The notes beneath the pieces are model-generated. The model was given only the letters and a program-made list of their open reading frames with translations, was not told where the DNA came from and made no database searches. The position numbers and the translations under genes are program-made. This document shows positions 38,169 through 62,104 of a stretch of 64,000 nucleotides of DNA, in pieces; within the stretch, counting starts at the first letter, position 1, and each line of letters opens with the position of its first letter. Origin of the DNA: Epinephelus fuscoguttatus (Eukaryota; Chordata; Actinopteri; Perciformes; Serranidae). The DNA is taken from the NCBI RefSeq assembly GCF_011397635.1, contig NC_064752.1, positions 403,501 through 467,500 of the forward strand. The letters run 5' to 3'.

Positions 38169-39430
38169 AAATCAAATCAAATTTATTTATAAAGCACATT
38201 TAAAACAACAGCTGTTGAACCAAAGTGCTGAACAATCATGAGTATAAAAACAACACAATAAAAGAAACACAAACAGGTAACAGACAGAAATGCCAAACTC
38301 TCATACAGAGTTAAAAGCCAAAGAATAAAAATGTGTTTTAAGACATGATTTAAAGACGGACAGTGAGGGGGCAGTCTGACATGCAGGGGCAGCTCCTTCC
38401 AGAGTTTGGGGGCTGCAACTGAAAAGGCCCGGTCTCCCTTCTGCTTTAGCCTAGATCTAGGCACAACTAAAAGCGACTGGTCAGCAGACCTGAGAGCACG
38501 TGGAGGTGCATGTGCCACTAAAAGATCGGACAAATAAATGGGGCCTAGCTCATGTAAAGATTTATAAAGGAAGGTTAAAATTTTAAAATCAATTCTAAAA
38601 AGTACAGGGAGCCAGTGAAGGCTCGGGAAAGCACGGGAGAAATGTGCTCTCTCTTGCCATAAAAGGCACTGCAATAATCCACACTGATAGAAATAAAAGC
38701 ATGGATGAGTCTTTCAAAGTTGTTAACAGAGAGGCAGGACTTAACCTTAGATAAAAGCCTCAGTTGATAAAAGATTTGACGACTGAATTTATGTGTTTAT
38801 CCAAATTAAACCCACTATCCATGATCACACCAAGGTTTCTGACGTATGATTTTACCATGGACTTATATTGCTCAGGTCCATATTGGGGCCAACACAGGCA
38901 CTACTGGGTCCAAATATCAGAATCTCAGTCTTTTCGTCATTAAAACTTAGAACATTTAAGGCCATCCACGCTTTAATGTCTTGAAGACAGTCCAGCAGTG
39001 GCTGGAGGGTGCCATTTTGTTTTAAAGGCAGATCAATGTGTGTGTCAACTGCATAAAAATGAAATGCAATGCCATGTTTTCTCAGAATTGAACCCAGGGG
39101 GAGCATATAAAGGGAAAAGAGGATAGGCCCAAGAATGGACCCCTGAGGCACTCCACAAGGTAAAGGTGGAGGAGGACACACAAGCTTCTGTCAGTCAAGT
39201 AAGACCTAAACCACTAAAACGCAGGTCCTTTTATGCCAATATGATGCTCTAGGCGAGCGATAAAGATACTATGATCCACTCACTGTATCAAAGGCAGCTG
39301 ACAGGTCTAAGAGCATAAGAAGGGCAGAATTCCATCAGTGGCGATTAAAAGATCATTAAAAACTTTCAAAAGTGCTGTTTCAGTGCTATGACAGGCTTTA
39401 AACCAGACTGGAACACCTCGAGAATACCAT
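38169..39430 (-). mobile_element. L2-like LINE, 5'-truncated, minus strand
   Basis: From high to low, minus frames give FKACHSTETALLKVFNDLL, then a broken AAFDTV region, [20 protein letters not shown], a YAVD box in place of the catalytic [34 protein letters not shown] and FSVAAPKLWKELPLHVR. It ends at about 38172 with a GCTTTATAAATAAATTTGAT tail. Frameshifts, stops and the altered catalytic box show it is dead. It separates dcaf1 from the Ig genes. Confidence 0.88.
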
Positions 39431-40624: not shown

Positions 40625-41375
40625 ATTCAAGAAATAAACGTATAATGTCACAGGATGAAAGCATAGTGAAGACCAGAACACAAGTTTTATTTACAGACCT
40701 TGAAAAAGTCATTCATGCTTTTATCTCATTACGTCTGGATCACTGTAATTCCCTGTGCTCAGGGCTCAGCCAAAAGGCCATTTCCTGTCTCCAACTCACT
40801 CGTTCAAAACTCGGCTGCCAGACTTTTGACTGATTCAAAGAGACAAAACTACATAACTCCCCTCCTTGCAACGCTACACAGGCTACCTGTTAAGTATAGA
40901 ATCATTTTGAACTCTTACTAATTCCCTTTAAAGCCCTACATGGCCTCGCTCCAACATACAGTATAGATTTACTTACGCCCTATGAGCCTAGCCGCTGCCT
41001 GCGCTCCTCAGGTAGGACCTTCCTAACTGTTCCCACAGCTCGTGTTGTTCCAAAAGGAAACGGGGCATTTTCTGTTAAAGCCCCACAGCTGGGGAGCTCC
41101 TAACCTGAGGAACTTAGGTTAGCAAACTCAGTGTCTTCGTTCAAAACACTCCTCAAAACACACTTTACTAGAAGGCTTTTTACACTAAATCTGTTGTTTG
41201 TCTAGTTTCTATCCTTCTTTCATCTATTTCATTATTTATTCATTCATACACACTCTGATGTATCTGGTCTGAGGTTTTGTTCAACTTTTTTTTTATCTTG
41301 ATAGTGTATACTATCTTATTTGTCTCATAGAGCCCTTTGTAACTGTGTTTTGTAAAGTGCTATACAATACCTGCT
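40625..41375 (+). mobile_element. LINE RT tail (L2/CR1-type), plus strand, unit 1
   Basis: Plus frames read VIHAFISLRLDHCNSLCSGL, QNSAARLLTDSKRQNYITPL, then FKALHGLAP...LLTPYEPSRCLRSS and FSVKAPQLGSS, ending with a GTAAAGTGCTATACAA tail. This is the usual C-terminal sequence of an L2/CR1-type LINE. It is 5'-truncated and frame-broken, and lies in the 3' flank of Ig gene 1. Confidence 0.8.
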
Positions 41376-41461: not shown

Positions 41462-44060
41462 CTACAACATTGAATCGGGGGGTGCTGTTGCCTGTGAGTC
41501 ATGTGCACCCGTATTCAGTGGCTGCTGCTCCTCCTCTCTCTCTGCAGTCTCTGAACCCTCTGACCCTGCAGAAACATAAAACAAAAATGTATTAAAGATA
41601 TTTTGAACTTTCTTGATCCGACTCAGGCAGTCACCCCTCAGACATATATTTTCAAACGTATTATTCATCAGTGTCTGTTTGGAAATATAGTTAATGTGCA
41701 GATTGATTCTCTTGAAAGGTGCAGTGATGTGTATTTGTTAGTTAGCTCATAAGTTCAGGGCAGTTTTGTGGTCGACTATAAATGCTCAGTATTAGTAGTA
41801 GAACTGATTTTAAAGTTTCATTGACTACTTTTAGGACACTTCATGTGTCAGCCTGGTTGCACTGCAGGTCCTGACCCCATACTGTGTATACTGTACCAGA
41901 ACATGACTGAAGACCCTCAGGTTCAGTCTGAGTCCTCGTACCACAGCCAGCAATGTGCTGAACATTACTGTTCATCAGATGTTCAAATTTCTGTTGCTGT
42001 CTCTCTAAGGAGTTAAGAGGAAATGTCATTTGCATCTTCTTTAATTAGTTTTTAAAATGTAATATAAAATGATTCATTTATATTTGATGTAGGACCCTAA
42101 TTGGATCTCGTAACTTTAACGATAAACTGTCTGAAAACAGAAACGAGGCCCTCTGCTGTAACGTGCGCACTGATTCGGAAAAACAGACTCTTGTATTATA
42201 TTCACAACTTTGTTGTATTTATTTTTATTTATTCATTATTAGAACCAGAGGACTCATATATTAATGTAGTCTCAGTGAGTTTTGTATAAAACAGACTGGT
42301 TCATATCTGAAGAGACAAACACAACTGTAAAGACTCTGACAGATATGTTGATAGGATATATTATTAAAACTTACCTCTACACCTGTGATGGCACAAAAAC
42401 AAACTGTAACAACCCCAAAGAAGGACTAAAATTACTCCAGCAACAAGGCATGCAACATTACCATTGCTCCAGGTTTCGTCTGAAACACATGACAAAAAGC
42501 TGATGTCAGGTAAAAAGTAGCACGCACATACCCAAAAAAATTTTTATGCTAGGTGCTGGACCAAAAGGTAAGTATGAAAGAAAAAGATGAAGTCCGCACA
42601 CCAGAAGCTGCTCCTTGCACAATTTATTCATGCATTGAATAAAACAAAAAGCTGATGTAACACTCAAAATGTAACTGTGTATCATGTACAGCAGATTGAT
42701 CATTGACTAAACGTAGAGAACAGTTCAATGTGCTGCTAAAATCTATCAAAACTAAAAGTACAACACATGAGCACCTCAAGGAGGAAACTTACCAATGATA
42801 TACACAGGTATCTCTGTATGAATCTGATGGTTGATTTCCTCCTGTGTGACCACACAGTGATAGCGGTCGGTCTTGGTCACAGAAGTTTGGAGGATGATGT
42901 CATAGCTGCCTCCTCTGTCTGTGACCTGTGTCTCCTCAGCAGGAAGGATGTTTCCATCACTGTCCTTCCACTCTACTTTAGATTTTGGAGAAGCACCTCG
43001 AACAACACACTGCAGCTGCATCCAATCAAGTTTGACATTGAGGACTGTGACAGATGGCTTTGGAGATGAAACTGTCAACACATTATAAAGAATAAGTTAG
43101 AAAGAACAATTACATGATCAGAAATGTAATAATGTGCTTTTTGTGTTCACTCCCTCTCTGCTCGTATTTAGAAACACTCACCAACAACAAGATCAATGTG
43201 GAATATTTGAGGCGTCTGAAGAAGTGGAAAAAAGCAGGTGTAGTCTCCACTGTCAGCCATCTTTGTATTTCTGATGATGATGGAGGCGTTGCCGTGTTTC
43301 AGCTCATCTTGGAAATGAAAGACTCGACCTTTGAACTGCTCATCTTGACCTGAACCACCATTGTTGTAATGGAGGCCTTCATCATACATGAACACCCCCA
43401 TCATACCATCATCTTTCATCCAGACAAAGAGTTTCTGCTCGATGTTCTCCTTGGTGCTGAGGGAACAGGGTAATGTGACATCACTCCCTTCTGACACCAA
43501 CACTTTGATGGCCGCTGGTCCTGGAACATAAAAACATCATATGTTTGCAACATGTGTCACCAGAATTATTTTCTTGACCTGAGAGGTTTTTGAGAGGTTA
43601 CTGTGGCGCCCTCTGTTGTCCTAAAACTAACATTTCTTTTCATTAGGGGTTCAAGCCCGAAGGGTCAAAGAAATTTTGCTTTGTTTGATTGACTTGAAGT
43701 TCGACACACACGTCCAACTGAATGTGCTCTACAAGTCTTAGGAACCATTAAGGTTTTCCGCCATATTGAATTTTCTGAAAAACAAATTTTTGACATCATG
43801 GGAGGAAGTTTATCAATAGTCATCAACAGCTTTTTGATATGTCATTGCTTTATGATGATATTGACCAATTACCTTTAGAGAGGGCGTGGCTCAGCACATT
43901 AATGGATTTTACTCATTAATTTATAAAAGAATTCATTGAATTAAATATAACTCCTGACATCTCCATACAGACAGTGTGGGAGGCCTTTAAGGCAACATGT
44001 AGGGGATGGATCATTAGTTTTTCATCATATAAGCACAGAGAAGTTACAGAAGAAAGAGAA

Positions 44061-44102
<42 letters not shown>

Positions 44103-46230
44103 ACTTGATGCCCTGATCTCAGCGGTTGAAATTTTGAATAATATTAAAGGTCTGTCAAATGGTAAGGCACCTGGTGGAGACGGTTACACCACAGCATTTT
44201 TAAAATGTTTCTTGAGAGAGATCACACCACTGTTGGTGAACTTATATAATGATATTATACAGAAGCAATTTATGCCACAATCAATGCAGACAGCCATAAT
44301 ATCATTGTTGCCCAAACCTGGAAAAAAACACCTTGACATAAACAATTATAGGCCTTTAAGTTTACTTAATAATGATTATAAATTGCTTGCAAAGATACTA
44401 GCAAAAAGATTAGAAAAAATTGTGCCCACTTTAATTCAGCTGGATCAGGTTGGTTTTATCCCTGGGCGGTTATTATCCAACAATATGAGGAGGCTTAAGC
44501 AAGTTGTGCAAGTGGCCAGCTCTCTCCAACATCCAGTGGTAGCAGTATCATTGGATGTGGAGAAAGCATTTGACCGTATAGAGTGGCAGTATTTGTTTTA
44601 TACTTTGTCTAGATATGGTTTTGGTCCTAGATGTTTACAGTGGATTAGAGCTCTGTATCATGAACCTGTTTCGGCAGTTAAGAGTAATAATATCATTTCA
44701 ATACCACTTCAGCTTTATTGCTCTACTAGACAAGGTTGTCCTCTTTCCCCACTATTATTTATCCTGGCACTAGAGCCTCTAGCTTGTGCAGTAAGGTTGG
44801 ATAGATATATTACAGCAGGTGTCTCAGTTGGTGATTATGATTTTAAACTTAATATGTGCGCACATGATATTCTGTTGACATTGTCTAAGCCATCATGCTC
44901 AATCCCAAAAGTATTACAAACAATAAAAACATTTGGCAATTTGTCAGGATATAAAATAAATAAATAAAATACAAAAGTGAAACCATCCCTTTAAATCAGT
45001 TTACACACATCACAGATCTGGGTCCAGCTCCTTTCATATGGAAAAGAGAAGGGATGAGGTATTGGGGCATTAAAATCAGAACCCCTATCAGCAAAGTGTT
45101 TGAAATAAAGGCTCATCCTCTGGGACATTCCATAAAGGAAGACCTTAAAAGGTGGTCTAGTCTGAGTGGGCGGAAGTTCGCTGCGTAGATCAGCCTCTCA
45201 CTGGGCGGAATTTATTGCTTGGGCACTGTTATTTACGTGACAACACCTGAACATAACACACACAGACACACATTGGCTGTTTGTTTCTACCTCTCTCCTC
45301 TCTGGAAGCCTCAGACCTCCAACCGCCCGCCTCCGCCTTGATTAAACGACGGTAAACGGCAAATGCGTGCTCATGGTTAGAGGAGTATCACCCAGGATTC
45401 ATATGAACTTGATTGTGGACATGGTGGACAAACAATATCACTCTGGACATAGGATCACAACATGGAAACAGCTGATCCTTACAACTCAATCTGGGTGAAA
45501 ATGAGTGTGTAAATTAATTTTTTGGGATGGCGGCCATATTGGTAATATGCAAATTAGAGGACAGAAATAAAACATAATATGATTTAGCAATAAATACTGA
45601 ATCTGCATGTTCTAATGTGTTTCTAATGCTTAAACATATGTAACACCAAGTTTGTTAAAAACAACAACACTTATTTTAATTTGCCACCATCTTGGGAATA
45701 TGCAAATTAGGGGTCCAGATGCATCCAATCATTAAATTAGCACTCCTATGTGTTTCTCATGGGCAGAAAACATCAGATAAACACCAACTTTGCATTTGTG
45801 GCTCATCTAGTTCAAATGTTAGAGCTGAAATGGTTACAGTCGGCAGCCAAATTGGATTTTGCCACAGTCATCAGAATGCTAATGCTAATGTGACTGTAAT
45901 GCGATGTTCAATTTCCAGATTCCTTTTAAATACATTAATTTAAATATGTAGGCCTCCTGAATGTGGTGCTTTTAACACAAAATGAACGACTGTCTTGAGT
46001 TTGTGAGCTATGCTACTCTACACACTGCTCTGAACACTCTTCAGTTTCTTTAGGCCACAGAGCCAACAAACTAACCAAGGCCTACATGAAGTGCTGAGCC
46101 CGACTTCCTGTCAAACAAACTTGTGCCTTCATAAACTACAAAGTTAATGGTTCTTACCTTTTTCATCACAAAGAGTTTTTCCAGTGAAACACAGCAGGCA
46201 AAAACACAGCAGGTCCAGCTGAAGCTTCAT
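41462..46230 (-). CDS. Butyrophilin/B7-like Ig membrane protein, copy 1
   Basis: Five coding exons: 46158-46230 (signal peptide), 43182-43520 (V-set), 42793-43071 (second Ig), 42375-42479 (transmembrane), 41462-41565 (tail). All junctions are GT-AG, each in phase 1, and the sum is 900 nt (299 residues). The V-set domain has the first cysteine in VTLPCSLS and the second in ADSGDYTC, with a tryptophan in FVWMKDD; an N-glycosylation site is at NAS. The second domain has QLQC and YHCVV cysteines and VEWKDSDG. The transmembrane exon encodes a Val/Leu-rich helix, then a short Glu-rich tail without B30.2 or ITAM/ITIM. The order fits teleost butyrophilin-like, HHLA2-like or CD276/VTCN1-like B7 receptors or ligands; I cannot name the orthologue. 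Intron 1 holds an L1 fragment. Confidence 0.86.
43905..45180 (+). mobile_element. L1-clade LINE ORF2 fragment in intron 1 of Ig copy 1
   Basis: The frame at 44134-44967 carries LSNGKAPGGDGYTTAFLK, NNYRPLSLLNNDYKLLAKIL, QVGFIPGR, LDVEKAFDRIEW and RQGCPLSPLLFILALEPLA, the reverse-transcriptase blocks of the L1 clade. The catalytic FADD/YADD box is changed to CAHD, so it is inactive. Upstream (43915-44060) a frame with ELNITPDISIQTVWEAFKA and downstream (45050-45175) GMRYWGIKIRTPISKVFEIK continue the same protein. It is in antisense orientation to the gene and is absent from unit 2. Confidence 0.88.
44061..44100. repeat. (ATT)n microsatellite
   Basis: About 13 ATT units inside the L1 fragment, splitting its upstream piece from the RT core. 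Confidence 0.97.
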
Positions 46231-46302
46231 GACTGTCTATCTGATCTTTGGATTCATTGTTGTTGCAAACAGTCGGGTGTCTTCTTATCGACGCAACACC
46301 GA

Positions 46303-48400
46303 GGCCCACATCACTCCTGATGAAGGGGAAGTGTAAAATAGAGAAGTCAAAACATGGCACACCCTCACCACTCTCCCGGAAGAAGGAAGCAGATGTAACC
46401 ATGGATACCAACAGACACTTTGTGAAAGCAAAATAGAGCAACAAGTTATTAAAAAAAAACATTTAAATCTGAATTAAAATGAGTTAAATTAAAAATAAAC
46501 CTGAATAAGTCAGATAAGAGTTACAGTGCAGTGGAATCAAAGTAATTAACTTGTTCATATTTTCTTGACACAGTTCACACATTCACAGATGAACTTCATT
46601 CATTAATCTGGGCAGTCTTACTGCCATCCCTGCTTTGCAGCATTCCTCTTTTTAGTGAAGAGACTCATTTTTAATCAGCAGATTGTGTGACTGCTTTGTC
46701 ACGTGGTGTGTTTGTTCTGGAGGAGAGGAGACCTGTGTGGATAATATTTCATATTTAGACTTCTCATCTTAGGCAGGACTTCACAAAATCCTTCTAATCA
46801 AATCAAAACACCATATTTTCATGTGGAACAGGCTTGTTAATATAATCAATATCATGCTGTGCCAAATGTGTATTACATGTATTTGTTGCATTATTTTAAA
46901 TATGAATGCCTTGTTTGAAATAATATTTGTAATCATTGTAAAATAATCTTTTTCTCTGGCTTTTAGTTCCAAACATAATCAATCAGTATTGACAACTAAT
47001 AATCATAAAGCCCATCAATAAAATCAAATTACTCCTCTACTTTATCAGACTGACAACACATTACTGCATTACGTGATGAAATTAATTACCACATCTACAC
47101 ACAGCGCCGTCTCACTAATTCATCTTGCGGTTTGTGCGACTGTCAAACACACACATATACACACCAACAGCGTCTCTGCCGTCATCTGAGCATTGATGCA
47201 AAAACCTTTTCTCCGACCTGTTTCTCTGTGCAGGAGACACACACAGGAAGCGCACCTGCACAGGTGACATTAATTAAATCCATAATGCGTCACCGGAAGC
47301 TAAAATCGCCACACCTTTTAAATTAAATCACTCTACTCTGCTTTTTAGTGCTCCTTAAATTACATAACTCTGAAACCAAAGCAAAGGAATGAAAAAGAAA
47401 AGAAGAGCATTTTAATTTATGCCTGAACAGTTTATAAAGAGTTTATTGAGCTTCAGAAGGAGCAGAGTTTTCTCAACATCCTTCAGTTCATCACAAACAC
47501 TCAACATCAACACATCTGGAGATACATGGTTTTCACTGGACAGGAAAGGGATGGAGAACTGTCCTCTGAGCAGTAACTAAAGCTGTCAGACAGATGCAGT
47601 GAAAGTACAATAGTTAGCTGTGACATGTAGAGGGGGAAAGTATAAAGTTGCATTAAATGGAAATATAAATAAAGTACCTTGAATGTGTAGTCAGCTACAG
47701 CAGTTGAGTCAGTGTACTTGGTTGGACTCCACCACTGTAGCTCATGTAGTATGAATCTCTCCACTCAATATTACTGATATATAAAAGCTAATGAAACTGA
47801 TCTTAACTCAAGGTCCCCTTACTGTACCTTTAACCACATCTCACTGTCTTCATCATCACATGGAGTTTGAGATGGGTGTGACTGACTCTGAAAAAGCAGA
47901 TGGACCTTAAGTTAGGGTTTTGGTTTTTCTTTTTGCCGCTCAAAATTATGTTCAACAATGAACTTTCATGTCCAACTACAGTCGTACTTGACGAGTAGGT
48001 TACTGAGGTATTAGGACACTAGCCCCAATGGGATACAATGCAACTGTAATAGAGAGCAAACCCGCTGTTGTTTGTTAAATCAAGTGGATATTACACATTA
48101 TCATTGTATATGATCACATTATAATAAGGATTTGTACCTTTTCAGCACAGTTTATGCATGAGACAAAGTATTTAGTGTTCAGACAAGTGTTGAACCCTTT
48201 AATGTCCACACCAAGAAAAGAGAAATGGAATTTTCTGTCTTTGCATTTTTTCATTTCCTTAGGGCAATACTAACAAAAATCAGTGTTTGTTTTCTGACAC
48301 TGTAACATGCTCATAAAACATGCCTTGCTTTAAAAATCCCACCACACAGAACCCTCATATCTGGAGTGACTTTATTTGTTCCTAACTTCCTGTGTGACGC
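46303..48400. other. Upstream flank of Ig copy 1, no gene
   Basis: No exon is recognised. Between 46800 and 48404 the sequence has no counterpart in unit 2. The 85-residue minus frame at 47507-47764 has no splice support or similarity. Confidence 0.5.
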
Positions 48401-48654
48401 AAACTGTAAAGGCACACTATTTACAGACACAGCAACATCCAGTGGATTTCTTTAGCATGACACAGCTAACCAGAGTGGTGGAGATAGCTCCATCAGGTTA
48501 GCTTCAACACATTGTTCATTGAGATACAGTGACTCAAAATGTGCTAAACCAAACGGTTGAGAATGCTAAAGGGTTAACCAAAGTTAAAACAGATCTTTAT
48601 ACATATCTTTTTTTTTTATTGAAGCATTGCAGGTTAGTATAAATGTAAGTAGTA

Positions 48655-49030
48655 TATATGTGGAGCCCCTGAAGCCAAACTGCTATTTAAAATAGTTTGG
48701 ATGTAAGGTCCAATAGTCTCATAGATATCTTTAAAAAAGTGAGAGGGAACAACATCTGTGGGACAAGTAGAAGGTTTCAAATGACCAATTACATCATTTA
48801 ACTGTGAAAGAGACACAGGCTCAAAGTCCTTAAAAACAGCAGAGCAAGTGACAGCAGTGGAGGGGTCATAAGAAGGAGGTGAAATGTGTGATCTAATGGC
48901 CACAATCTTGTCAATAAAAAAAGTGAAGAAAGTTTTCACAGATTTCTGGGGACACATCAAGGCAAGCAGAAGGAGGGGTGTTGAGAATATTATTAATGGT
49001 GTCAAACAGAACACGAGGTTTGTGGCAGCT
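48655..49030 (-). mobile_element. L2-like LINE linker fragment, minus strand
   Basis: The minus frame has FFTFFIDKIVAIRSHISPP, FEPVSLSQLNDVIGHLKPST, then DVVPSHFFKDIYETIGPYIQ. This is the segment between endonuclease and reverse transcriptase in fish L2-type LINEs; the near-complete copy at 60290-60600 shows the same order. Both ends are missing. Confidence 0.8.
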
Positions 49031-49344
49031 ATTAGAGAAAATGTTCAGTTCAAAACCTGAAGGAAAAGCACTTATACCACACTGGGAAAATACTCCAGCA
49101 TGACAACTTGTGATTTCTTCACAAAGACAACTTCTGGTGATGTCACTTTAATTAATGTCAAGTTGTCATAATCAAGACAGCCCAAACAATGTCAACTTGT
49201 CATTACAAAAACCCAATGACACTTAATGACAGCAGTCATAAACGTTTATGACATGTACATAATAATAAGATAAAATCAGACACCTTCAAGTAAAGTGTTA
49301 GCGTTAAAGCTTACAAGTATCTTACACAACATCCTGATAGCAGC
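49031..49344. repeat. Palindrome-rich interspersed repeat between the duplication units
   Basis: GACAACTTGTGATTTC, GTCAAGTTGTCATAATCAAG, GTCAACTTGTCATTAC and CATAAACGTTTATGACATG recur within about 200 bases in both orientations. A known fish repeat of unknown class has this TTGTCAT spacing. It lies exactly at the join between the two units. Confidence 0.5.
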
Positions 49345-50944
49345 CATCAGTGTGTGCCGCTGCAGCTGTGATGAAGGTGAGGTTTTACTCAGCCATCCCA
49401 TAATGTCAGTCTGCATGAAGCAGCAGCCAACACTATGAGAGGAACTTCATTAGTCACTTAAAGTTACGCATGATGATGTTTCACAAGACTAAACTGAATT
49501 TAATCCTGGTTTTCTTTTGAGAATATTCGTGCTGAATATCAGCTGTTAGCAGTTTAGTTAGAACAGTGATGTTATCTGCCTTCACAGTCCCAAATATCTG
49601 TAAACTCCAGTGATGTGTGTCTCCAGAGAAATAGAGTCTGTTTCCTAATGCAGTCTTATTCATAGAAAAAAGACCTGAAATGATTTAAGATGAATCACAC
49701 AGAAGAAACAACTCAGGTTTTTAACCCTTCATGCAACATATTACATGTCTCCACTGTTCATCTGTATGATCAGTGTGATGCAAACTGGATACATAAATCA
49801 CTGATGTGTGACTTGCCTCTGAAATGATTTACTTTATTTAAATGGAGGAAAACATTTAACAGTTAAACAGTGTTGTGTGTTCAAAGTGTCATCTACAGAA
49901 ACAGGTGTTGCAGGTGGCGTCTGTCTGAGAAACTGACCACAAGCTGAACAAACAGTCACACCACAAATCATAATGTCAGCATGTTTTATTCAGTAGAATA
50001 GTAACATTTAAACAGATAAACAGAACTGACAGAAATCACATAAAGGCAGGATACAAGTGTATGACAACATTTACACCATAAACAGTTTGAAAGTTTTCTC
50101 TACACACTCTGGCTTGTTGTACGTAAGGAAAAGTTCAACAGTCACACCACAAATCATAATGTCAGCATGTTTTATTCAACAGTATAGTAACATTTAAACA
50201 CTGGTTGCAATTGAATTAAAGAAAATGTCAACATTCTCTAAAGTACACATTCACATTCTTGCTGAGAGAACACTGATACCTGACACATGAACACAACAAA
50301 TGTATCTCTCATGAGCAAACATTTGTAAAGGCACAAAATATAAAAATAGGTACAATATATGAATAAACTGACAAATGTTTTACACTTTATTTAACACTTT
50401 CACAGCATTGTGGCAAACTCTGGTTCAAGTCTTGTAATTTGGTCTGAATATAAAAATATGATACAGCATCATTTTGCCTCCTGCAGAAGTCTCACAACCA
50501 AATCTCAAAGACACTTTTAATTGTGATAATGACACGAACATGAATGAACTAAACACAAGATGTATGTTTTAGCATCTCAGTCATTATCAAAGGGTTGAAT
50601 GTTACAGTCTGATACACAGCACAGTGAAGGCCTAAAACATATCTGCCACTTCAGTCTCACACTTGTGTTAAACCCCACTCAATACTTGAATCTTAAAGCT
50701 TTTCTTTCAACACAAAAACATTGTTTAATACTAATATAATACTGAGACAAACGTTAAAACTTAGAAAAGTGCAAATGAAGTAGCCCATAGCAATAAGCTG
50801 GAATTATGGCCTTTTGGTTAAGAGGCCTTCTTGATTTCAACAGGTGTAAGAAACTGTTTTGTTTTTGTTTTTTTTTTAATTTACAGCAGGCCTGTATCTC
50901 AGCATTTCAGTCATTTCTGTGAAAATTAAATTGTTTTCAAAGTT

Positions 50945-51416
50945 TAAATTATTATTCTCCAACTCAATGAGTATGGACTCGTTCAAAACTCTACATAACT
51001 CCCCTCCTTGCAACCTCCTTTTGAACTCTTACTAATTCCCTTTAAAGCCCTACATGGCCTCGCTCCAACATACAGTATAGATTTACTTACGCCCTATGAG
51101 CCTAGCCACTGCCTGCGCTCCTCAGGTAGGACCTTCCTAACTGTTCCCACAGCTCGTGTTGTTCCAAAAGGAAACGGGGCATTTTCTGTTAAAGCCCCAC
51201 AGCTGGGGAGCTCCTAACCTGAGGAACTTAGGTTAGCAAACTCAGTGTCTTCGTTCAAAACACTCCTCAAAACACACTTTACTAGAAGGCTTTTTACACT
51301 AAATCTGTTGTTTGTCTAGTTTCTATCCTTCTTTCATCTGTTTCATTATTTATTCATTCATACACACTCTGATGTATCTGGTCTGAGGTTTTGTTCAACC
51401 TTTTTTATCTTGATAG
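50945..51416 (+). mobile_element. LINE RT tail, unit 2 copy, proximal part
   Basis: The same L2/CR1-type tail as at 40625-41375 but with the upstream part shortened by internal deletion. It keeps FKALHGLAPTYSIDLLTPYE and FSVKAPQLGSS. The hAT element at 51417 splits it; its end resumes at 52442-52505. Confidence 0.78.
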
Positions 51417-52433
51417 TAGGGATGCACCGAAATGAAAATTTGTGGCCGAAGCCGAATAAAATTAAACACTTGACCGAATACCGAGTACCAAATGCTGAAT
51501 ACTGAATACCGAATACCGTTGTTTAGTTTTTCATCAGTTTTTGCAGATGAACCGCCTCCAGATTAGTGTTGTCACGGTACCAAAATTGGGACCCACGGTA
51601 CGATACCAATGAAAATATCATGGTTCTGAGTAGTATCAGGATACCACAGCTAAAATGAGGCAGATGTGCCTTTTGTCATTTATAAAAAGATAAATCACTT
51701 TTCTATAATACATCAATGATATTTCAATGGAATAAATTACTTACTGACTTATTCATACTTCAAAAACAGCATCAGTAAGTGATTAACATAGGGGGGATCA
51801 AAATAAAATAAATAACTAAAATAAGAATCAACCAGCCACCCTCCTCCCTTGACAAGTAAAGAACAGTCCCTTCAGTGCGGCGAGGTTTGTGGGCCGTTGC
51901 TGCCAGAAAGAGAGAAATGTGAACGGCTCGTTTCTCCTCTGACACATCACATACCTGTGTGCTGTCACGGCTCGGCTGTCCAGGTACTTTTGGGCAGTCA
52001 TGACAGCAAGAAGAGGATATTATTGGAGCTGGACTTCTCCGTCGCCGGTAAGCCTATGGCCGCCATATTTGACAGGAATACATTAACGTTACCGTCTGTG
52101 TCTGTGACCCCCGTTCAACCCACAACTGGCGGGATTTGCCTTTTGTTTCTGCTGCTGGTTGAAATCTGTACTCACACAGCGTGCTGAATGATTTATTTTG
52201 CTCGCACAAAACTATTTTTAGTCGCAAATGCAAGTGCAGTGACGAATGGAGTAAAATATCGCCACTGCCGACATTTTACTCCGTCCATCACCGCACGCTG
52301 TTTGACTGCGTTATCAAAACACGCCGCTATTATTCGGCCTTGCTTTTCACTTATTCCACCGAATACCAAATGTGTGTTTTTGTGCAATATTCAGCCGAAT
52401 ATATTCGGTTACCGAATGTTCGGTGCATCCCTA
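51417..52433. mobile_element. hAT-like element with 8-bp target duplication
   Basis: Ends are TAGGGATGCACCGAA and its exact complement TTCGGTGCATCCCTA. The element is flanked by CTTGATAG at 51409-51416 and 52434-52441. Unit 1 has a single CTTGATAG (41297-41304) at the same point, an empty site. An 8-bp duplication and A/GGGATGCACCGA-type ends fit the hAT superfamily. Inside, 51560-51610 looks like the end of another element (GTTGTCACGGTACC). The frames are short and no transposase or BED finger is visible. Confidence 0.92.
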
Positions 52434-52762
52434 CTTGATAGTGTATACTATCTTATTTGTCTCATAGAGCCCTTTGTACCTGTGTTTTGTAAAGTGCTAT
52501 ACAAATTAAGCTCATCATTATATTATAATTAAACATAATAGACACATAGAATCGTATATCAGTTGTTCTGTACTGTTATTGTTATGCATTGAATATAATA
52601 CAAAATAAAATAGATCGCTTCCTCAGCGGTCTTCAGTTTACTCAATAACAGAAAAGAGGTCCCTTCAGGAAGAAGGTTGACAAACACTGATTTATACCAT
52701 CAACACAGTTTAAAGGTGGACACCCAAAATTAGTGTCACAAATTCCCCCTCCCCACACTCCT
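52434..52762. other. LINE tail end and 3' flank of Ig copy 2
   Basis: 52442-52505 is the end of the split LINE tail (GTAAAGTGCTATACAAATTA). The rest up to the stop codon of Ig copy 2 has no recognised feature. Confidence 0.5.
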
Positions 52763-55700
52763 CTACGACGTCGAATCGGGGGGTGCTGCTGCCTGTGAGT
52801 CATGTGCACCCGTATTCAGTGGCTGCTGCTCCTCCTCTCTCTCTGCAGTCTCTGAACCCTCTGACCCTGCAGAAACATAAAACAAAAATGTATTAAAGAT
52901 ATTTTGAACTTTCTTGATCCGACTCAGGCAGTCACCCCTCAGACATATATTTTCAAACGTATTATTCATCAGTGTCTGTTTGGAAATATAGTTAATGTGC
53001 AGATTGATTCTCTTGAAAGGTGCAGTGATGTGTATTTGTTAGTTAGCTCATAAGTTCAGGGCAGTTTTGTGGTCGACTATAAATGCTCAGTATTAGTAGT
53101 AGAACTGATTTTAAAGTTTCATTGACCACTTTTAGGACACTTCATGTGTCAGCCTGGTTGCACTGCAGGTCCTGACCCCATACTGTGTATACTGTACCAG
53201 AACATGATTGAAGATCCTCAGGTTCAGTCTGAGTCCTCGTACCACAGCCAGCAATGTGCTGAACATTATTGTTCATCAGATGTTCAACTTTCTGTTGCTG
53301 TCTCACTAAGGAGTTAATAGGAAATGTCATTTGCATCTGAAATGATAATAAATCATAGTTTTTAAAATGTAATATAAAATGATTCATTTATATTTGATGT
53401 AGGACCCTAATTGGATCTCGTAACTTTAACGATAAACTGTCTGAAAACAGAAACGAGGCCCTCTGCTGTAACGTGCGCACTGATTCGGAAAAACAGACTC
53501 TTGTATTATATTCACAACTTTGTTGTATTTATTTTTATTTATTCATTATTAGAACCAGAGGACTCATATATTAATGTAGTCTCAGTGAGTTTTGTATAAA
53601 ACAGACTGGTTCATATCTGAAGAGACAAACACAACTGTAAAGACTCTGGACAGATATGTTGATAGGATATATTATTAAAACTTACCTCTATCAATCCTTT
53701 TGTTGGGCCTGTGATACCACCTAAACAACCAAACTACAACAAGCCCAAAAAAGGCTAAAGTTGCAGCAACAACAAGACATGTAACAATATTCCTCCAGCT
53801 GTTGCCTGAAACACATGACAAAGAGCTGATGTAACACTCAAAATGTAACTGTGTATCATGTACAGCAGATTGATCATTGACTAAACGTAGAGAACAGTTC
53901 AATGTGCTGCTAAAATCTATCAAAACTAAAAGTACAACACATGAGCACCTCAAGGAGGAATCTTACCAATGATATACACAGGTATCTCTGTATGAATCTG
54001 ATGGTTGATTTCCTCCTGTGTGACCACACAGTGATAGCAGTCCGTCTTGGTCACAGTAGTTTGGAGGATGATGTCATAGCTGCCTCCTCTGTCTGTGACC
54101 TGTGTCTCCTCAGCAGGAAGGATGTTTCCATCACTGTCCTTCCACTCTACTTCAGGTTTTGGAGAAGCACCATGAACCTCACACTGCAGCTGCACTCCAT
54201 CATCTGTGGCATCAAGGACTGTGACAGATGGCTTTGGAGATGAAACTGTCAACACATTATAAAGAATAAGTTAGAAAGAACAATTACATGATCAGAAATG
54301 TAATAATGTGCTTTTTGTGTTCACTCCCTCTCTGCTCGTATTTAGAAACACTCACCAACGACAAGCATTACATGGGATTTTTCTCTTCTCTGCACAAATG
54401 GAAAAACACAGGTGTAGTCTCCACTGTCAGCCATCTTTGTATTTCTGATGATGATGGAGGCGTTGCCGTGTTTCAGCTCATCTTGGAAATGAAAGACTCG
54501 ACCTTTGAACTGCTCATCTTGACCTGAACCACCGTTGTTGTGATGGAGGCCTTTATCATACATGAACACCCCCATCATACCATCATGTTTCCTCCAGACA
54601 AAGAGTTTCTGCTCGATGTTCTCCTTGGTGCTGAGGGAACAGGGTAATGTGACATCACTCCCTTCTGACACCAACACTTTGATGGCCGCTGGTCCTGGAA
54701 CATAAAAACATCATATGTTTGCAACATGTGTCACCAGAATTATTTTCTTGACCTGAGAGGTTTTTGAGAGGTTACTGTGGCGCCCTCTGTTGTCCTAAAA
54801 CTAACATTTCTTTTCATCAGGGGTTCAAGCCCGAAGGGCTGAAATGTTGTTGTTGTTGTTTTTGTTGTTGTTGTTGATGAAATGATACATCGTAGAGAGA
54901 CAAAATTTTCACCAAAGATTGGAAACTGTGTGCAAATGGTACTCAAGAAATATAAGTCCAATCGGCCAGATGTGGGCGCTATAACTAAGGTCGAAGAACT
55001 TTCGTTTTGTCACACTGACTTGAAGTTCGACACACATGTTCAACTGAATGTGCTCTACAAAAGTCCTCAGAACCATTAAGGTCTGCCTGACTAGACTGTC
55101 TGCCATATTGAATTTTTTGAAAAACACATTTTTGCCATGTCCTCCTCAGGCATAGGTCCGATTTCTACTAGATTTTCTGTGCATCATGACTGGATGAAGT
55201 TTATCAAAAAATATCAACAGCTTTTTGATATGTCATTGGGTTTTGATGATATTGACCAGTGAACTTTAAAGGGGGCGTGGCTCAGCACATTAATGGATTT
55301 ACTCCTTAACCGTTGAGCCAATCATCACAAAACTTGTAGGACATGTCCAAATATTTACCTGAGTCATACCCTGAAAGTTTTATTCAAATCGACCACTAGG
55401 GGGCTCTACACATGCAAAAAGAAAAAAAAATCTCATAATCAGCTACAGAGATTTGTATGACATTGTGCTTGCATCATCAACAGTCATGTCTCAGTCAATA
55501 CACAAAATTTGGAAATTATCGCTTAAAGGGGGCGTGGCTTATTACATTGTCTAAATTTCCACACATTTCACAGTCCATACTTCAAAAAATCATAATAGAT
55601 CACCAGTGTGTCTGACAGAGCTGAATTTTTTTTCAGCACATCCACTGAATTGTGACAAAACTTCGTCATGCCGCAACCTGTCGTCAATTCAGAAGTCTGT

Positions 55701-58378
55701 CACTCTATATTTTTAAAAATATGTAAAATTTATTAACATCTATATCTCTAAAAGTCTTCATCTAAATGCAACCATCGTTGCCACAAACATTCTGTGGATA
55801 CTAGATGTCACATGTTTCAAATGGTGTTCAGATCGGTTTAACAGTTAGCTCACAGTGATATTTATTATCTTGTTGTACTTTGTACTGTGTGCACAACATT
55901 TTCTGTTTCATCTCATTTTTAACCAAATGTCACCAAAATATTTGACAATATTCCTGAAATCAGCAGAATGATGCGAGATTTTTTTCAGAATTATATCACC
56001 AACACTTAAACTGTGATATCTCATTGCTTTTTGAAGATATTGACCAATTAACTTTTAAGAGCGTGTGGCTCAGCAAATGACTCCACAACGTTTGGGCCAA
56101 TCACCACAAACCTTGAAAGCAATATCTTCAGAGGTACCAGGAACATATCCTGAAAGTTTCCTTTAAGTTGACCACTAGGGGGCACCTCAGATACAAAAAA
56201 TGAGCATGCAATAACACAAATCAGATTATAAATCAGAAATATACGGTGGCCGACAGGGATAAACGCGATGCAAATAGAGAAACGCACTACAAATAGACAA
56301 ACGCACTACATATAAGAAAACAAATGCAAAGGAAAATGCTGCAAATAGAGAAACATGCTGCATATACTGAAACACGCTGCATATAAGAAAACCAATTCTA
56401 AAAGAAAACGCTGCATATACACTCACAACGGAGGTGCTCCAGGCCTGTAGGGGCAGTGTTCAGCTTCCACCCGAGAGACAGACGAGTGAGCGAGAAGAAG
56501 AAGAAAGTTATGTTTGGAGGAAAGTTGGAGCCGGGACAGGCAACACAGAAAGGTACGTATTCTTTTTTATTTCTCTTTCTTTCTTGTTTTTCACATGTGG
56601 CCCTCATCTTTTACTGTATAATGAGAGTGAAGCTGATTTACATAGCTGACGTAAGCGTGCTAGAGACTTTCTACACGAGTAGTGTGTCCGTAGTAGCAAA
56701 GTTAGCTAATGTTACTGTAACCAACATTACTTTCCGGGACACCCCAGGTTTCGGTTCGGAGGCTTACTTTTCTGAACATTTTTTAATGTATAATACAGAG
56801 GTCAAGATTATATTGTAGACTTATTCATAATAGACTTTTAACAGCTCATATCATAAATAATTTGATATTAGATTTTGGGATATAAAATTAAATATTATCT
56901 ATTAGTGCTTAGAGCTGAACAGCTGTGAAACAATCATGAAATAATGTTTTATGTGATTTGCCTGCTGTCAATCAGCACTGAGCGCCGCCTCTTCCCATTC
57001 AGTCTGTACGCTATTTTTCTTTGCATTTGTTTTCTTATATGTAGTGCGTTTCTCTATTTGCATCGCATTTATCCCTGTCGGCCACCGTAGAAATATATCT
57101 TGTCTAATCATTACAAAACATGCAGGATGTGCTAAATAATAATTATGAGCCATATGTTAAATTTGTTTTTAATCGGTCTACAGGGGGCGCCACCTGTTCC
57201 ACACAGCCCAGGTGATCTTACACCTGACCAAGTTTGGGATTGCAATCAACTGGAGAAGAGCAGCCTCCTACTACACCATGATGTCATGCCGCGACAGGGC
57301 GTTCATTGATCAGGCTCCACCCACTGTACCCAAAGAGTCCAGGGGTGAGATAGAACAAAGGTTACAATAGTATAACCCTAGCTCTATTGGCACAGATGAA
57401 ACCCTCTGCATAGGGGCCCTGACACTGCTTTGTGGCTCGCTGAAGAGGGTGTAGGATGTCACACATAGGAATCTGTCTCCTTATGTACTGAGGGGTCCGC
57501 AAATGTTCAGATAGGCAGGTCTGGATTGGCTGGTTACATTCATACCTTTCTCAGTGGGCAAATGCGGAAATGTGGACAAACAATATCACTCTGGACATAG
57601 GATCACAACATGGAAACAGCTGATCCTTACAACTCAATCTGGGCGAAAATGAGTGTGTAAATTAATTTTTTGGGATGGTGGGCATATTGGTAATATGCAA
57701 ATTAGAGGACAGAAATAAAATATAATATGATTTAGCAATAAATACTGAATCTGCATGTTCTAATGTGTTTCTAATGCTTAAACATATGTAACACCAAGTT
57801 TGTTAAAAACAACAACACTTATTTTAATTTGCCACCATCTTGGGAATATGCAAATTAGGGGTCCAGATGCATCCAATCATTAAATTAGCACTCCTATGTG
57901 TTTCTCATGGGCAGAAAACATCAGATAAACACCAACTTTGCATTTGTGGCTCATCTAGTTCAAATGTTAGAGCTGAAATGGTTACAGTCGGCAGCCATAC
58001 TGGATTTTGCCACAGTCATCAGAATGCTAATGCTAATGTGACTGTAATGCGATGTTCAATTTCCAGATTCCTTTTAAATACATTAATTTAAATATGTAGG
58101 CCTCCTGAATGTGGTGCTTTTAACACAAAATGAACGACTGTCTTGAGTTTGTGAGCTATGCTACTCTACACACTGCTCTGAACACTCTTCAGTTTCTTTA
58201 GGCCACAGAGCCAACAAACTAACCAAGGCCTACATGAAGTGCTGAGCCCGACTTCCTGTCAAACAAACTTGTGCCTTCATAAACTACAAAGTTAATGGTT
58301 CTTACCTTTTTCATCACAAAGAGTTTTTCCAGTGAAACACAGCAGGCAAAAACACAGCAGGTCCAGCTGAAGCTTCAT
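52763..58378 (-). CDS. Butyrophilin/B7-like Ig membrane protein, copy 2
   Basis: Five coding exons: 58306-58378, 54356-54694, 53967-54245, 53686-53805, 52763-52866. Junctions are GT-AG in phase 1 and the total is 915 nt (304 residues). Layout and cysteines match copy 1. The signal exon is identical. The V-set exon differs most near its end: the strand after the second cysteine reads FPFVQRREKSHVML where copy 1 has FPLLQTPQIFHIDL. The transmembrane exon is five residues longer, with a clear helix around CLVVAATLAFFGLVVVWLF followed by a basic RWYHRPNKR stop-transfer. The tail ends PPDSTS. It is intact and probably functional. Exact orthology in the butyrophilin/B7 group is not clear. Confidence 0.87.
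54830..56242. repeat. Interspersed repeat array with GGCGTGGCT blocks
   Basis: GGCGTGGCTCAGCACATT, GCCATATTGAATTTTTTGAA and CGACCACTAGGGGGC recur at about 55080, 55270, 55390, 55530, 56060 and 56170. These are diverged copies of one fish repeat, also seen at 43740-43900 and 62860-63540. They fill intron 1 of Ig copy 2. Confidence 0.6.
56243..57088. mobile_element. Inverted-repeat DNA element with 8-bp target duplication
   Basis: Left end ACGGTGGCCGACAGGGATAA is the complement of the right end. AGAAATAT flanks both sides (56235-56242 and 57089-57096), an 8-bp target duplication of hAT type. Inner arms carry GAGAAACGCACTAC repeats that continue the inverted match to about 56320 and 57020. The centre (56440-56560) is GC-richer, with an AGAAGAAGAAGAAAG stretch, an ATG and a donor-like AAAGGTACGTA, as in a first exon. 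Confidence 0.85.
57097..57570. other. Intronic repeat DNA in Ig copy 2
   Basis: It includes another CAGGGGGCGCC block and a stretch without recognised features up to the point where similarity with unit 1 resumes (57572, matching 45423). Confidence 0.5.
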
Positions 58379-58449: not shown

Positions 58450-61400
58450 CTGTACGCATAGACATATGCACCGAGTTTGAGCAATGAGTTTTTCTCTCTG
58501 TAACACCTTCCTGAGTTTGTTTCCGTGTCTGTGGTGTGTGTGTGGGTTGGAGAGTAGGAAACTTTTCTGCCGATTCTCTGTAATATCTCTTTATGAGTAA
58601 CTGCTTTATTTTCCATTCATACTGTAACATGCCAAACGGCATCAGAGAAACACTCATTTGTGACTGAAACTGCTTTAATCTCTCCGTATGCTGTGTGTGT
58701 TTTTTCTGTTTGTAACACTTGCTGCACTTAAAGGCAACTCTCTGCTGGTGTATGATCGCCAAACGTTGCTAGATCTGAGAACCTCCACTACAGGTCTGGT
58801 CAACTTAGATCATAATGGACACCGAACTCTACCTCCGTTCCTCTCGGATATACCGGCACACCTTTGCCGCACGTCAGCGCCACTCCCTCGGCGAAAACGC
58901 CACCGCAGGCGCGGTAAGCGTGGCGGCCGTTTGGTAAGGCTGAGGGTCGCGCTGATGCGTCCCGATCGTGTTGGATTTGGAGCGGTGCCTTGCCTCTGTA
59001 TCTCCCGACGTTGGCTGGATCCTGTCGCGGCCTGTTTGGTACCGGTGGCCGGCCTGGATGACCTGTTTCTCCCCCGCGGCCCCTGCTCTCCTCATCCACG
59101 CTGGCGTGGAGCCGACCCAGGGAACCTGCAGCTTCTCCGCGGGGAGCGTCTGTCAACGGCTCGCTCTGACCCACCGGCTCTAGCCAGGTTTGGCCTGGTT
59201 AATGCAAGATCGCTTGCTAATAAAACATTCATCCTGAAGGATTTCTTCACATCGCGTGATCTGGACTTCCTTTTTGTCACAGAGACGTGGCTGAGCCTTG
59301 GTGAGTCCAGTGCTTTTACAGAACTTTTACCTGCCGACTGTTGCTATTTTAATTCTCCACGGACATCTGGTCGAGGAGGAGGAATTGCAAGTGTCTTTAA
59401 AAGCCACTTCAAATGTAAACAAATATCGCTGTCATCGGCTCCCGCCAGCTTTGAATTAAGCCTGTTTGAGCTGGGATGTCCTCACACGGTGCTGTGTGCT
59501 GTCGTCTATCGACCTCCAAAATACAACAGGGATTTTATAACTGATTTTTCTGCGTTCCTGGCTGATATCATGCCGAAATATGACAGAGTTTTGATCGCTG
59601 GTGACTGCAATATTCATGTGTGCTGCCCGGAAAACCCCCTGGCGAGGATTTCTTAAATCTCATTGACTCTTTTAATCTCGTACAATCTGTATTGGGCCCT
59701 ACACATGTACAGGGACACACACTTGATCTTGTTTTGTCATTTGGTTTGCCTGTCTATAATCTGGAAGTCTGTGAAGCGTATTTCTCTGATCATATGCCTG
59801 TACTTGTTGAAGCCGCAGTGTGTTTTAACTCTGTTAAACCTCCCGCTGCTGTTCGCAGCTGCCGGGTTATTAACCCTTCCACTGCCGCTCACTTCTCGTC
59901 TGCTTTCAGTCAGATCTGCGCCACTACTGATCCTGCACACCTTGACACAGAGGCTCTTTGCTCTCAGTCTTTTCACTCTTGCCAGTCTGCCATCGACTCT
60001 GCCGCCCCATTAAAGAGCAGGCAGCGTAAAGTTAAGCCTGAGCCGTGGCTGAATGAAACAACCCGCAGTGTCAGACAGGAGTGTCGCAGAGCTGAGCGTA
60101 AATGGAAAAAAGATAAACTAGAGGTGTCTTTTCAAATATTGAGGGATTGTTGGCGTCGTTATCAGTCCTCTGTGAAAGAGGCAAAAAGGAAATATTTCTC
60201 TGACATTATTGTCTCTAACTGTCACAAACCTCGTGTGTTGTTCAAAGTGATCAACTCTACCCTGAATGCATCACAGACTGTGGGAGCTGAGCCCTCTCCC
60301 CCTGTGTGTGAAAACTTTCTGCGATTTTTTATTGATAAAGTTTCTTCTACCAGAGCACTTATTTCACCTTCAGCCTCTGACCCCTCAGTGTTTGTCCCCC
60401 GTTCTGCTGTCTTTGACTCATTTGAGCCTGTGACCCTGGCGTTTGTGCAAGAGATTGTGGGGGGTTTAAAACCATCTGGTTCGCCCAATGATCCTGTTCC
60501 TCCTCAACTTTTTAAAGAGGTTTTCCCCACTCTCGGGCCTTACTTACTCAATATTATTAACAGCAGTCTGTCTTCAGGAGTGGTTCCTGTTCAGTTTAAA
60601 CATGCAGTTGTGCAGCCACTGATTAAAAAACCTGGACTGGATCCCACTGTTATGGCTAATTTTAGGCCCATTTCCAAACTGCCTTTCGTATCAAAGATCT
60701 TAGAGAAGATTGTTTATTCTCAGCTTTTTGACTTTTTTAATGACCACAACATTCTTGAAATTTTCCAATCTGGTTTTAAAACATTGCACAGCTACTGACT
60801 CTGGTCACTCGGTAATTCTTGTCCTTTTAGATTTAACTGCTGCTTTCGACACAGTGGACCATGATATCCTAATTGCTCGCCTGGAGCAGTGGGTGGGCAT
60901 CAGGGGTCAGGCGCTGGCTTGGTTCAGGTCCTACCTATCACACCGGTCATTCTGTGTCGGCCTTGGTGACTCTGTGTCCTCCACTGCTCCTCTCTCTTGC
61001 GGGGTTCCACAAGGCTCAGTGTTGGGCCCACTTTTATTTTCTTTATACCTTCTTCCACTTGGGTCCATTCTCAGGAAGCACGGCATTTTATTTCATTGTT
61101 ATGCGGATGACAGCCAGATTTATGTCCCCTTAAAAGGCTGACTCTTCTGCACTTAAGCCACTTCTAAATTGTCTGGATGACGTCAAAGCTTGGATGGCTC
61201 GAAACTTTTTAAATTTTAATGAGAACAAGACGGAAGTGATTGTCTTTGGTGGCATTTCCGTGACCTCCCCAGTCGACCTGGGTTCCCTGGCGCAGTTCGC
61301 CAAACCCACTGTTAATAATCTGGGGGTAAAAGTGGACGCGGAACTAAAGTTCGACAGCCAGATTAAAGCTGTGGTAAAACCAGCTTCTTCCAGCTAAGAC

Positions 61401-62104
61401 AACTTGCTAAAATTAAACCCTTTCTGCACAGACAGCACTTTGAAACAGTAATACATGCCTTTGTAACCACTCGGCTTGATTACTGCAATGCTCTTTACAT
61501 GGGGTCAGCGGGTCCTCCATTGCACGCGTCTGCAACTAGTGCAGAATGCAGCTGCACGTCTCTTAACTGGCACTCGAAAGTCTGAGCACATTACACTGAT
61601 TTTAGCTTCACTTCACTGGCTACCCGTCCATTTTAGAATTCATTTTAAAATTCTTTTATTTGCTTTTAAAGCCCAAAATGGCCTTGCTCCAGTGTACCTC
61701 TCTGAGCTTCTGCACCCTTACGCACCTACTCGATCCCTCAGGTCAGCTGACCAGCTGCTCCTGAGGGTTCCCAAAACAAGGCGGAAGCTCAGAGGGGACC
61801 GAGCGTTTGCTACTGCCGCCCCTAAGCTTTGGAATGAACTGCCGCTGCACATCAGGCAGTCCTCTTCCGTGGCCACTTTTAAATCTCTTCTTAAAATGCA
61901 CCTCTTTTCCTTGGCTTTTAACACCACCTAGATTGTTTATTTTATGTGCACAGGTTTTACCCTTTATTTATTATGTTTTCTGTTTTAATGTCTATTTTAT
62001 TGTTTATTTTATTGTTTATTTTTCTTAATGTACAGCACTTTGGAAACCTTGAGTTTATTTAAACTGTGCTTTATAAATAAAGATGGATTGGATTGGATTG
62101 GATT
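58450..62104 (+). mobile_element. Near-complete L2-type LINE, frameshifted, plus strand
   Basis: The N-terminal part (from 58688) has a basic Arg-rich segment, then an AP-endonuclease domain with LVNARSLANK, FVTETWL, SGRGGGIA, VYRPP and AGDCNIH. It continues after a break near 59640 with an SDHMPV motif, a linker region, and the reverse transcriptase with AFDTVDHDIL, CGVPQGSVLGPLLFSLYLLP and an intact YADD box, ending with LHWLPVHFRIHFKIL and APKLWNELPLHIR (stop near 61930). The frame is broken near 59640, 60785, 61138, 61390 and 61490, so it is inactive. The 3' end is CTTTATAAATAAAGATGG followed by TTGGA repeats. It is absent from unit 1. The 5' end is approximate. Confidence 0.92.

Follow-up and report, generated by a model that had tools for sequence, protein, structure and literature searches.

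Patches of exon divergence in two tandem B7/butyrophilin-like genes of Epinephelus fuscoguttatus

Two tandem genes and their predicted products

We analysed a 64,000-nucleotide stretch of the Epinephelus fuscoguttatus assembly GCF_011397635.1 (contig NC_064752.1, positions 403,501 to 467,500 of the forward strand), hereafter called the window. Two intact tandem genes, U1 (46230-41462) and U2 (58378-52763), lie on its minus strand, and the subject of this report is the patchy divergence of their immunoglobulin (Ig) exons. The stop codon of U1 ends at 41462, and the ATG of U2 begins at 58378. Both gene models, which were predicted from the DNA, have open frames and internal AG/GT splice sites, and encode 299 and 304 amino acids, respectively.

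Exon 1 (46158-46230 in U1, with the ATG at 46230; 58306-58378 in U2) encodes a signal peptide, and the region 46157-46234 showed no difference from U2 over 78 positions. Exon 2 (43182-43520, with AG/GT splice sites, and 54356-54694) encodes a V-set domain (Pfam V-set, 2.3e-12 and 4e-13, respectively). Intron 2 (43072-43181 and 54246-54355) separates it from exon 3 (42793-43071 and 53967-54245), which encodes a second Ig domain of the butyrophilin type (Pfam C2-set_3, 4.4e-9 and 3.5e-12). The models are completed by the transmembrane (TM) exon 4 (42375-42479 and 53686-53805) and by the last exon (41462-41565 and 52763-52866), which encodes a short cytoplasmic tail and the stop codon. The TM segment was chosen with a simple hydrophobic score and the signal peptide was assigned by eye. 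The modelled tail stops after about 34 residues and gave no Pfam match in either gene; B30.2 exons were not sought in the rest of the window. U1 intron 3 also contains a 137-bp stretch (42507-42643) that is absent from U2 and was found nowhere else among the fetched loci.

The N-terminal domain was identified as V-set by Pfam in both copies, and C2-set_3 was the top Pfam match of the second domain in both, as expected of B7 and butyrophilin-type proteins. The nearest solved-structure relatives of the two-domain part of U2 were CD276 (1.9e-27) and BTN2A1 (5.6e-18). A search of two exons against NCBIfam, which is built for prokaryotes, gave no match. With a signal peptide, a V-set domain, a C2-type Ig domain, a TM segment, and a short tail in the gene models, the predicted products are B7/butyrophilin-like type I membrane proteins, and a T-cell-ligand-like function is presumed by homology only.

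Divergent patches and related genes on the same contig

A sequence-only reading of this locus had pointed out that the 110-base intron 2 is identical in the two copies, and base alignment bore this out (0 mismatches in 110 bp). The same reading held that the end of the V-set domain differs at most residues past its second cysteine and that the start of the second Ig domain differs at about ten; indeed, 10 of 17 residues differed in the former and 10 residues in the latter. Across the V-to-C block, 43 of 619 exon positions differed versus 2 of 379 intron positions (Fisher p 1.4e-7). The claimed excess of exon over intron divergence was thus confirmed, but it is confined to patches and does not extend over entire exons.

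In the V exon, 20 of 53 bp differed in a patch at 43183-43235 of U1 and 54357-54409 of U2, versus 5 of 286 in the body of the exon. In the second Ig exon, the A-B-C patch (42975-43045 in U1) differed at 15 of 71 positions and the remainder at 3 of 183, and outside the patches both Ig exons were about 98% identical. The TM exon is a third divergent patch, absent from the sequence-only reading, with 23 of 98 positions different and 23 gap columns; intron 4 showed no difference over 326 positions. The densest 50-bp interval held 20 differences, whereas such an interval never held more than 12 when the differences were placed at random 20,000 times. The V-set patch is taken to be complementarity-determining region 3 (CDR3) under presumed numbering; this label was drawn from the conserved cysteine and homology because structure prediction of the V domain was poor (predicted local distance difference test score, pLDDT, 40). 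The predicted model of the second Ig domain (pLDDT 87) places its patch on strands one and two and on the loop after them.

The genome search covered 26 contigs (1.05 Gb). With the U2 V domain as a protein query, at least 64 matches were obtained (best 150 of 152 candidates scored). Among the matches listed, 15 were 57-100% identical to the query and all lay on contig 1 (37-72 kb, U1, U2, 4.18 Mb, and 4.71-4.94 Mb), two of them being partial, and the other 49 were at most 39% identical. Among the 150 scored matches of another search of the genome, large arrays of V-set exons were seen on contig 17 (9.02-9.23 and 41.43-41.59 Mb) and also on contigs 14, 19, 23, and 9; those on contig 17 look by eye like antigen-receptor V segments. 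For the family-wide runs test and selection analysis, 13 of the 15 V exons and 17 of the 18 C matches were used; those left out were the V match at 4927762, which has stops and shifts, and two partial matches, V at 4877069 and C at 4910895. The V domain ends in FHI.LVV in all 12 other aligned V exons and in SHVMLVV in U2; hence the U1 CDR3 is of the family type and the U2 CDR3 is the outlier.

Two family members at 4.84-4.85 Mb of contig 1, P841 and P850, form the P lineage, and P850 (position 4850356) lies on the plus strand, 4.4 Mb from the U genes. Compared with P850, U1 differed at 11 of 50 positions (0.220) in distal intron 1, at 3 of 69 beside the V exon, at 6 of 286 (0.021) in the V body, and at none of the 53 in CDR3. 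Beyond the exon the differences rose to 20 of 95 (0.211) in intron 2, 9 of 29 (0.310) at the second-Ig exon start, and 16 of 64 in the A-B block. U2 gave the same counts except for the V body (7/286), CDR3 (20/53), and the A-B block (3/64). U1 and P850 share an exact tract of 237 bp (43176-43412, minus strand, P850 being on the opposite strand) that continues past the exon edge for 6 bases of intron 2; from that point the P introns, which contain a large extra stretch, no longer resemble U. The U1 CDR3 was the same as that of both P841 and P850 at all 53 positions, and against both of them U1 intron 2 showed 20 differences in 95 aligned positions and a large indel. Exon 2 of U1 therefore matches the P lineage through CDR3 to the exon edge, whereas that of U2 is P-like only as far as CDR3. 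As a separate matter, P841 and P850 are nearly identical to each other in the V exon and intron 2 (3/298 in intron 2) but differ in their TM exons, as though each had drawn its 3' half from a separate gene (L054, L055).

Synonymous sites of the V exon were nearly undiverged between U1 and P841 (0/69.8) and between U1 and P850 (2/69.3), and for the V body alone synonymous divergence was below the divergence of intron 2 (p 0.003 for U1-P850 and 0.0005 for U2-P841). Consequently, protein constraint fails to explain the likeness of the V exons. When sites were split among U1, U2, P841, and P850, U2 stood alone at 21 sites in V, 20 of them within CDR3. Two sites upstream in V grouped U1 with P850 and U2 with P841, and four sites within 8 bp of the second-Ig exon grouped U1 with P841 and U2 with P850, so that phylogenetic signals conflict in adjacent segments. 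Such conflict, together with a near-identical tract between diverged flanks, synonymous sites included, as seen in the V exon of U1 with P841 and P850, is expected of gene conversion. Conversion from another family member, which had been proposed from the sequence alone, is accordingly supported for the V exon, where the exact tract is flanked by 21-22% divergence. Since U and P lie on opposite strands, unequal crossing-over is disfavoured. Furthermore, the A-B contrast of U1 and U2 against P850 (p 0.002) fits a P850-type tract in U2.

Similar contrasts were observed elsewhere in the family. Two of six other V pairs showed divergent exons with conserved introns: V4712k/V4753k (exon 16/333 versus introns 1/448, p 1e-5) and V37k/V72k (exon 23/351 versus upstream intron 1/300, p 8e-6; downstream introns unrelated). 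One pair, V4912k/V4944k, showed the reverse (exon 23/345, flanks 154/286 and 68/133), and three were mixed. In the whole-family runs test, none of 2000 shuffles attained the observed value for either the 13 V exons or the 17 C exons.

Taken together, these findings suggest that U1 and U2 are probably mosaics produced by gene conversion among family members along one chromosome-size contig. The homology islands shared by U and P would be the exons, the introns being 15-22% diverged with a large indel. Conversion would then halt near splice sites, so that exon patches differ while the intron stays the same. The CDR3 segment would have been transferred from P to U1, and the A-B contrast and the TM exons may stem from the same process. 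The introns of U1 and U2 would be alike since the pair was recently duplicated or repeatedly homogenised. The presumed effect is a blockwise swap of the CDR3 loop, the second-Ig surface, and the TM segment, diversifying a T-cell-ligand-like protein.

Selection, age of the pair, and origin of the patches

Diversifying selection on a binding surface had also been proposed by the sequence-only reading. Acting in situ on a recently duplicated pair, it would have driven point mutations at binding residues rapidly to fixation. Two observations speak for it: the V body of U1 departs from that of U2 by four nonsynonymous changes and one synonymous change, each of them at residues 35 to 54, and V4720k and V4786k differ by 23.5 nonsynonymous versus 2.5 synonymous changes. 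However, synonymous sites in the patches were strongly diverged as well. The CDR3 patch has changes at 7.2 of its 11.8 synonymous sites and at 12.8 of its 42.2 nonsynonymous sites, giving proportions of 0.61 (pS) and 0.30 (pN) and a ratio of nonsynonymous to synonymous divergence (dN/dS) of 0.32. In the second-Ig block, the counts were 3 of 16.8 and 12 of 55.2 (dN/dS 1.26), and the pooled patch test of nonsynonymous versus synonymous sites gave p 0.34. Synonymous changes as frequent as nonsynonymous ones were the very outcome that the sequence-only reading had named as refuting its proposal. Such changes were enriched in the patches (10.2/28.7 sites versus 2/101.7 outside, p 2e-6); since synonymous sites diverged inside the patches and scarcely outside, old sequence makes up the patches and young sequence surrounds them.

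Across the family (78 V pairs and 136 C pairs), dN/dS was about 0.7, ranging from 0.49 to 0.78 by region, and no tested region exceeded 1 when pooled. Five disjoint close V pairs pooled gave a pN/pS of 1.58 (p 0.12), which became 1.30 (p 0.36) when U1-P850 replaced U1-P841. A dN/dS above 1 in the variable segments, as diversifying selection would give, was thus not demonstrated. In addition, 20 changes in 53 bp stand against a noncoding divergence of about 1% (20/1918). The synonymous counts in the patches led us to reject in-situ selection as the main cause; as an explanation it is largely refuted and we regard it as very improbable. A weak contribution of selection is possible, and the swapped segments may be kept by selection. 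Exons outpacing an intron thus mean, at this locus, segment exchange or unequal homogenisation of paralogues and not point-mutation selection, and the naive reading misleads.

Selection may enter in another way, which is compatible with the gene-conversion mosaic and addresses why the remaining sequence is identical: an old pair could have been homogenised by mutual conversion while selection purged those copies in which CDR3, the A-B block, or the TM exon had been converted. Over the eight main noncoding blocks, U1 and U2 differ at 19 of 2550 positions, and uniformly so (p 0.33), as expected of a recent duplication. Three further alignable pieces (12/487, 14/213, and 9/72) bring the total to 54 of 3322 and make the divergence patchy (p 8e-18), which favours the old pair, although these pieces contain repeats, gaps, and doubtful alignment. 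Uniform noncoding divergence was accordingly rejected as proof of recent duplication. A dispersed repeat in U1 intron 1 (43663-43919, minus strand) has its best genome match in its U2 counterpart (54989-55309; best 40 of 356 candidates scored). The two repeats stand at the same position and differ by 31 mismatches in about 256 bases and 66 gap columns, beside sequence that is less than 1% different. This also favours the old pair; however, the repeat possibly represents two insertions, because over its first 127 bases other copies in the genome match about equally well. Being a dispersed repeat, it was taken as suggestive only, and not as proof, of an old duplication. That neither TM exon has a close copy in the genome search agrees with an old pair, and cattle CEACAM32 is so described (PMC7042247). 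The likeness of the U1 and U2 introns may stem either from recent duplication or from an older pair that was homogenised, and we place the latter just short of an even chance.

Several results weigh against the gene-conversion mosaic. The genome DNA search with the U2 CDR3 gave only the sequence itself; it missed relatives about 76% identical that direct BLAST showed, and thus indicates the absence of close copies only (the best relative among the fetched loci was 75.7% identical over a 70-bp query). Both TM exons likewise gave only themselves, in a search that also missed the 73%-alike U2 exon when U1 was the query and hence is insensitive at about 75% identity. For the A-B block, U2 is P850-like and U1 has partial matches only (P841, 94% over 49 bp; a locus at 4763 kb, 91% over 53 bp). 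The third family member that the sequence-only reading had suggested seeking as a donor was accordingly found for the U1 CDR3 alone, and none was found in these searches for the U2 CDR3 and the TM exons. Furthermore, the difference of the U2 CDR3 from P (20/53) exceeds that of intron 2 (20/95, p 0.03), so that CDR3, if its U2 form is native to U, would have changed more rapidly than intron 2. A change confined to U1 could produce the same A-B contrast, and the direction from P to U1 is deduced from a comparison within one species. In the wider family, V37k/V4182k, V72k/V4182k, and V4720k/V4786k were the mixed pairs, and the C-exon comparisons L045/L047, L045/L049, L047/L049, and L023/L024 showed no exon excess. 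The runs test was weaker for single pairs (U1-U2 global p 0.17; U1-P850 not among the 14 pairs listed), and it presumes equal site rates, so that conserved stretches inflate its statistic. Finally, three patch edges (the CDR3 3' edge and both TM-exon edges) lie no more than about 6 bases from a splice junction, and conversion accounts for such positions only if homology stops at the same place.

The segments without a donor would be accounted for if the tandem copies came from two divergent alleles of one locus through unequal crossing-over between haplotypes, their introns having been homogenised by allelic recombination under balancing selection, for which the major histocompatibility complex (MHC) offers a precedent. 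This allelic origin leaves the U1-P850 tract unexplained, and edges sharp to a few bases would demand selection at every site; we consider it quite unlikely. A more novel possibility is segment switching that respects exon edges in this family: conversion, with spliced RNA as its possible template or with heterologous introns arresting it at splice sites, would rewrite loop and TM exon segments again and again and leave introns untouched. This is an unlikely process; if true, it would give the accelerated segment switch in exons to alter targeting (ASSET) of snake venom a counterpart among vertebrate immune genes, one in which the partner gene is visible. An assembly artefact, with chimaeric exons from collapsed or switched haplotypes, is conceivable in that near-identical tandem copies are difficult to assemble. 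It is hardly credible, given that both models are open with AG/GT splice sites, that the patches preserve the frame, and that the same pattern occurs in two other gene pairs.

Some further features of the window and of contig 1 were noted. Within U1 intron 1, 43951-45188 contains open frames, the first of which (43951-44967) matches Pfam RVT_1 (6.9e-31), and they were not found in U2 intron 1. Beyond the U2 ATG, 58679-60798 contains two long open frames whose matches to endonuclease (7e-5) and reverse transcriptase (0.0013) are weak, neither reaching the Pfam cut-off. Distantly similar pieces at 38170-39321, 40693-41241, and 48668-49042 are linked to 60208-62094, and these frames and pieces look like remains of a retrotransposon without long terminal repeats. 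On contig 1, L044/L045 (34-54 kb) and L048/L049 (4.178-4.195 Mb) share blocks up to 99.5% identical (426 bp) and differ in the middle of the V exon, a likeness due to segmental duplication or to conversion over 4.1 Mb.

Comparison with known systems

U1 and U2 are a well-documented new example of a mosaic known in other immune families; its edges are unusually sharp, and one partner lineage can be traced. Among the open-access papers listed, as judged by titles and abstract openings, none described fish B7/butyrophilin-like genes with such a pattern. The MHC is a familiar case of polymorphic exons beside homogenised introns; the likeness lies in variable exons and homogenised introns, whereas the MHC case is one of allelic polymorphism.

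The closest precedent is the cattle pair CEACAM32/CEACAM1, paralogous Ig genes with introns alike and N-domain exons different, the reverse being true of other paralogues; detected gene conversion, a TM exon with an origin of its own, and an N-exon dN/dS of 0.65 among ruminants are also reported (PMC7042247). U1 and U2 share with it the contrast of like introns and unlike exons, together with probable conversion and TM exons of possibly separate origin. In CEACAM (the CEA family), however, the N exon escapes conversion, whereas U1 and U2 have patches smaller than an exon and a tract in common with a gene 4.4 Mb off.

Chicken BG genes, which belong to the butyrophilin family, include hybrid genes and scrambled middle regions ascribed to recombination and deletion (PMC4046983). 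Like U1 and U2, they are multigene butyrophilin relatives with hybrids. The BG-region genes are close together in one orientation, so that crossing-over or deletion suffices, whereas a long distance and opposite orientation separate U from P.

In snake venom ASSET, short exon segments are swapped for very different ones while introns remain highly similar, and its authors left the mechanism open, deeming the segments too small for canonical recombination (PMC2711939). U1 and U2 resemble ASSET in their short replaced exon segments and similar introns, and in U1 one patch has a visible partner lineage. The U1 case thus gives the question raised by ASSET, namely how short exon segments switch, a partner lineage that can be traced.

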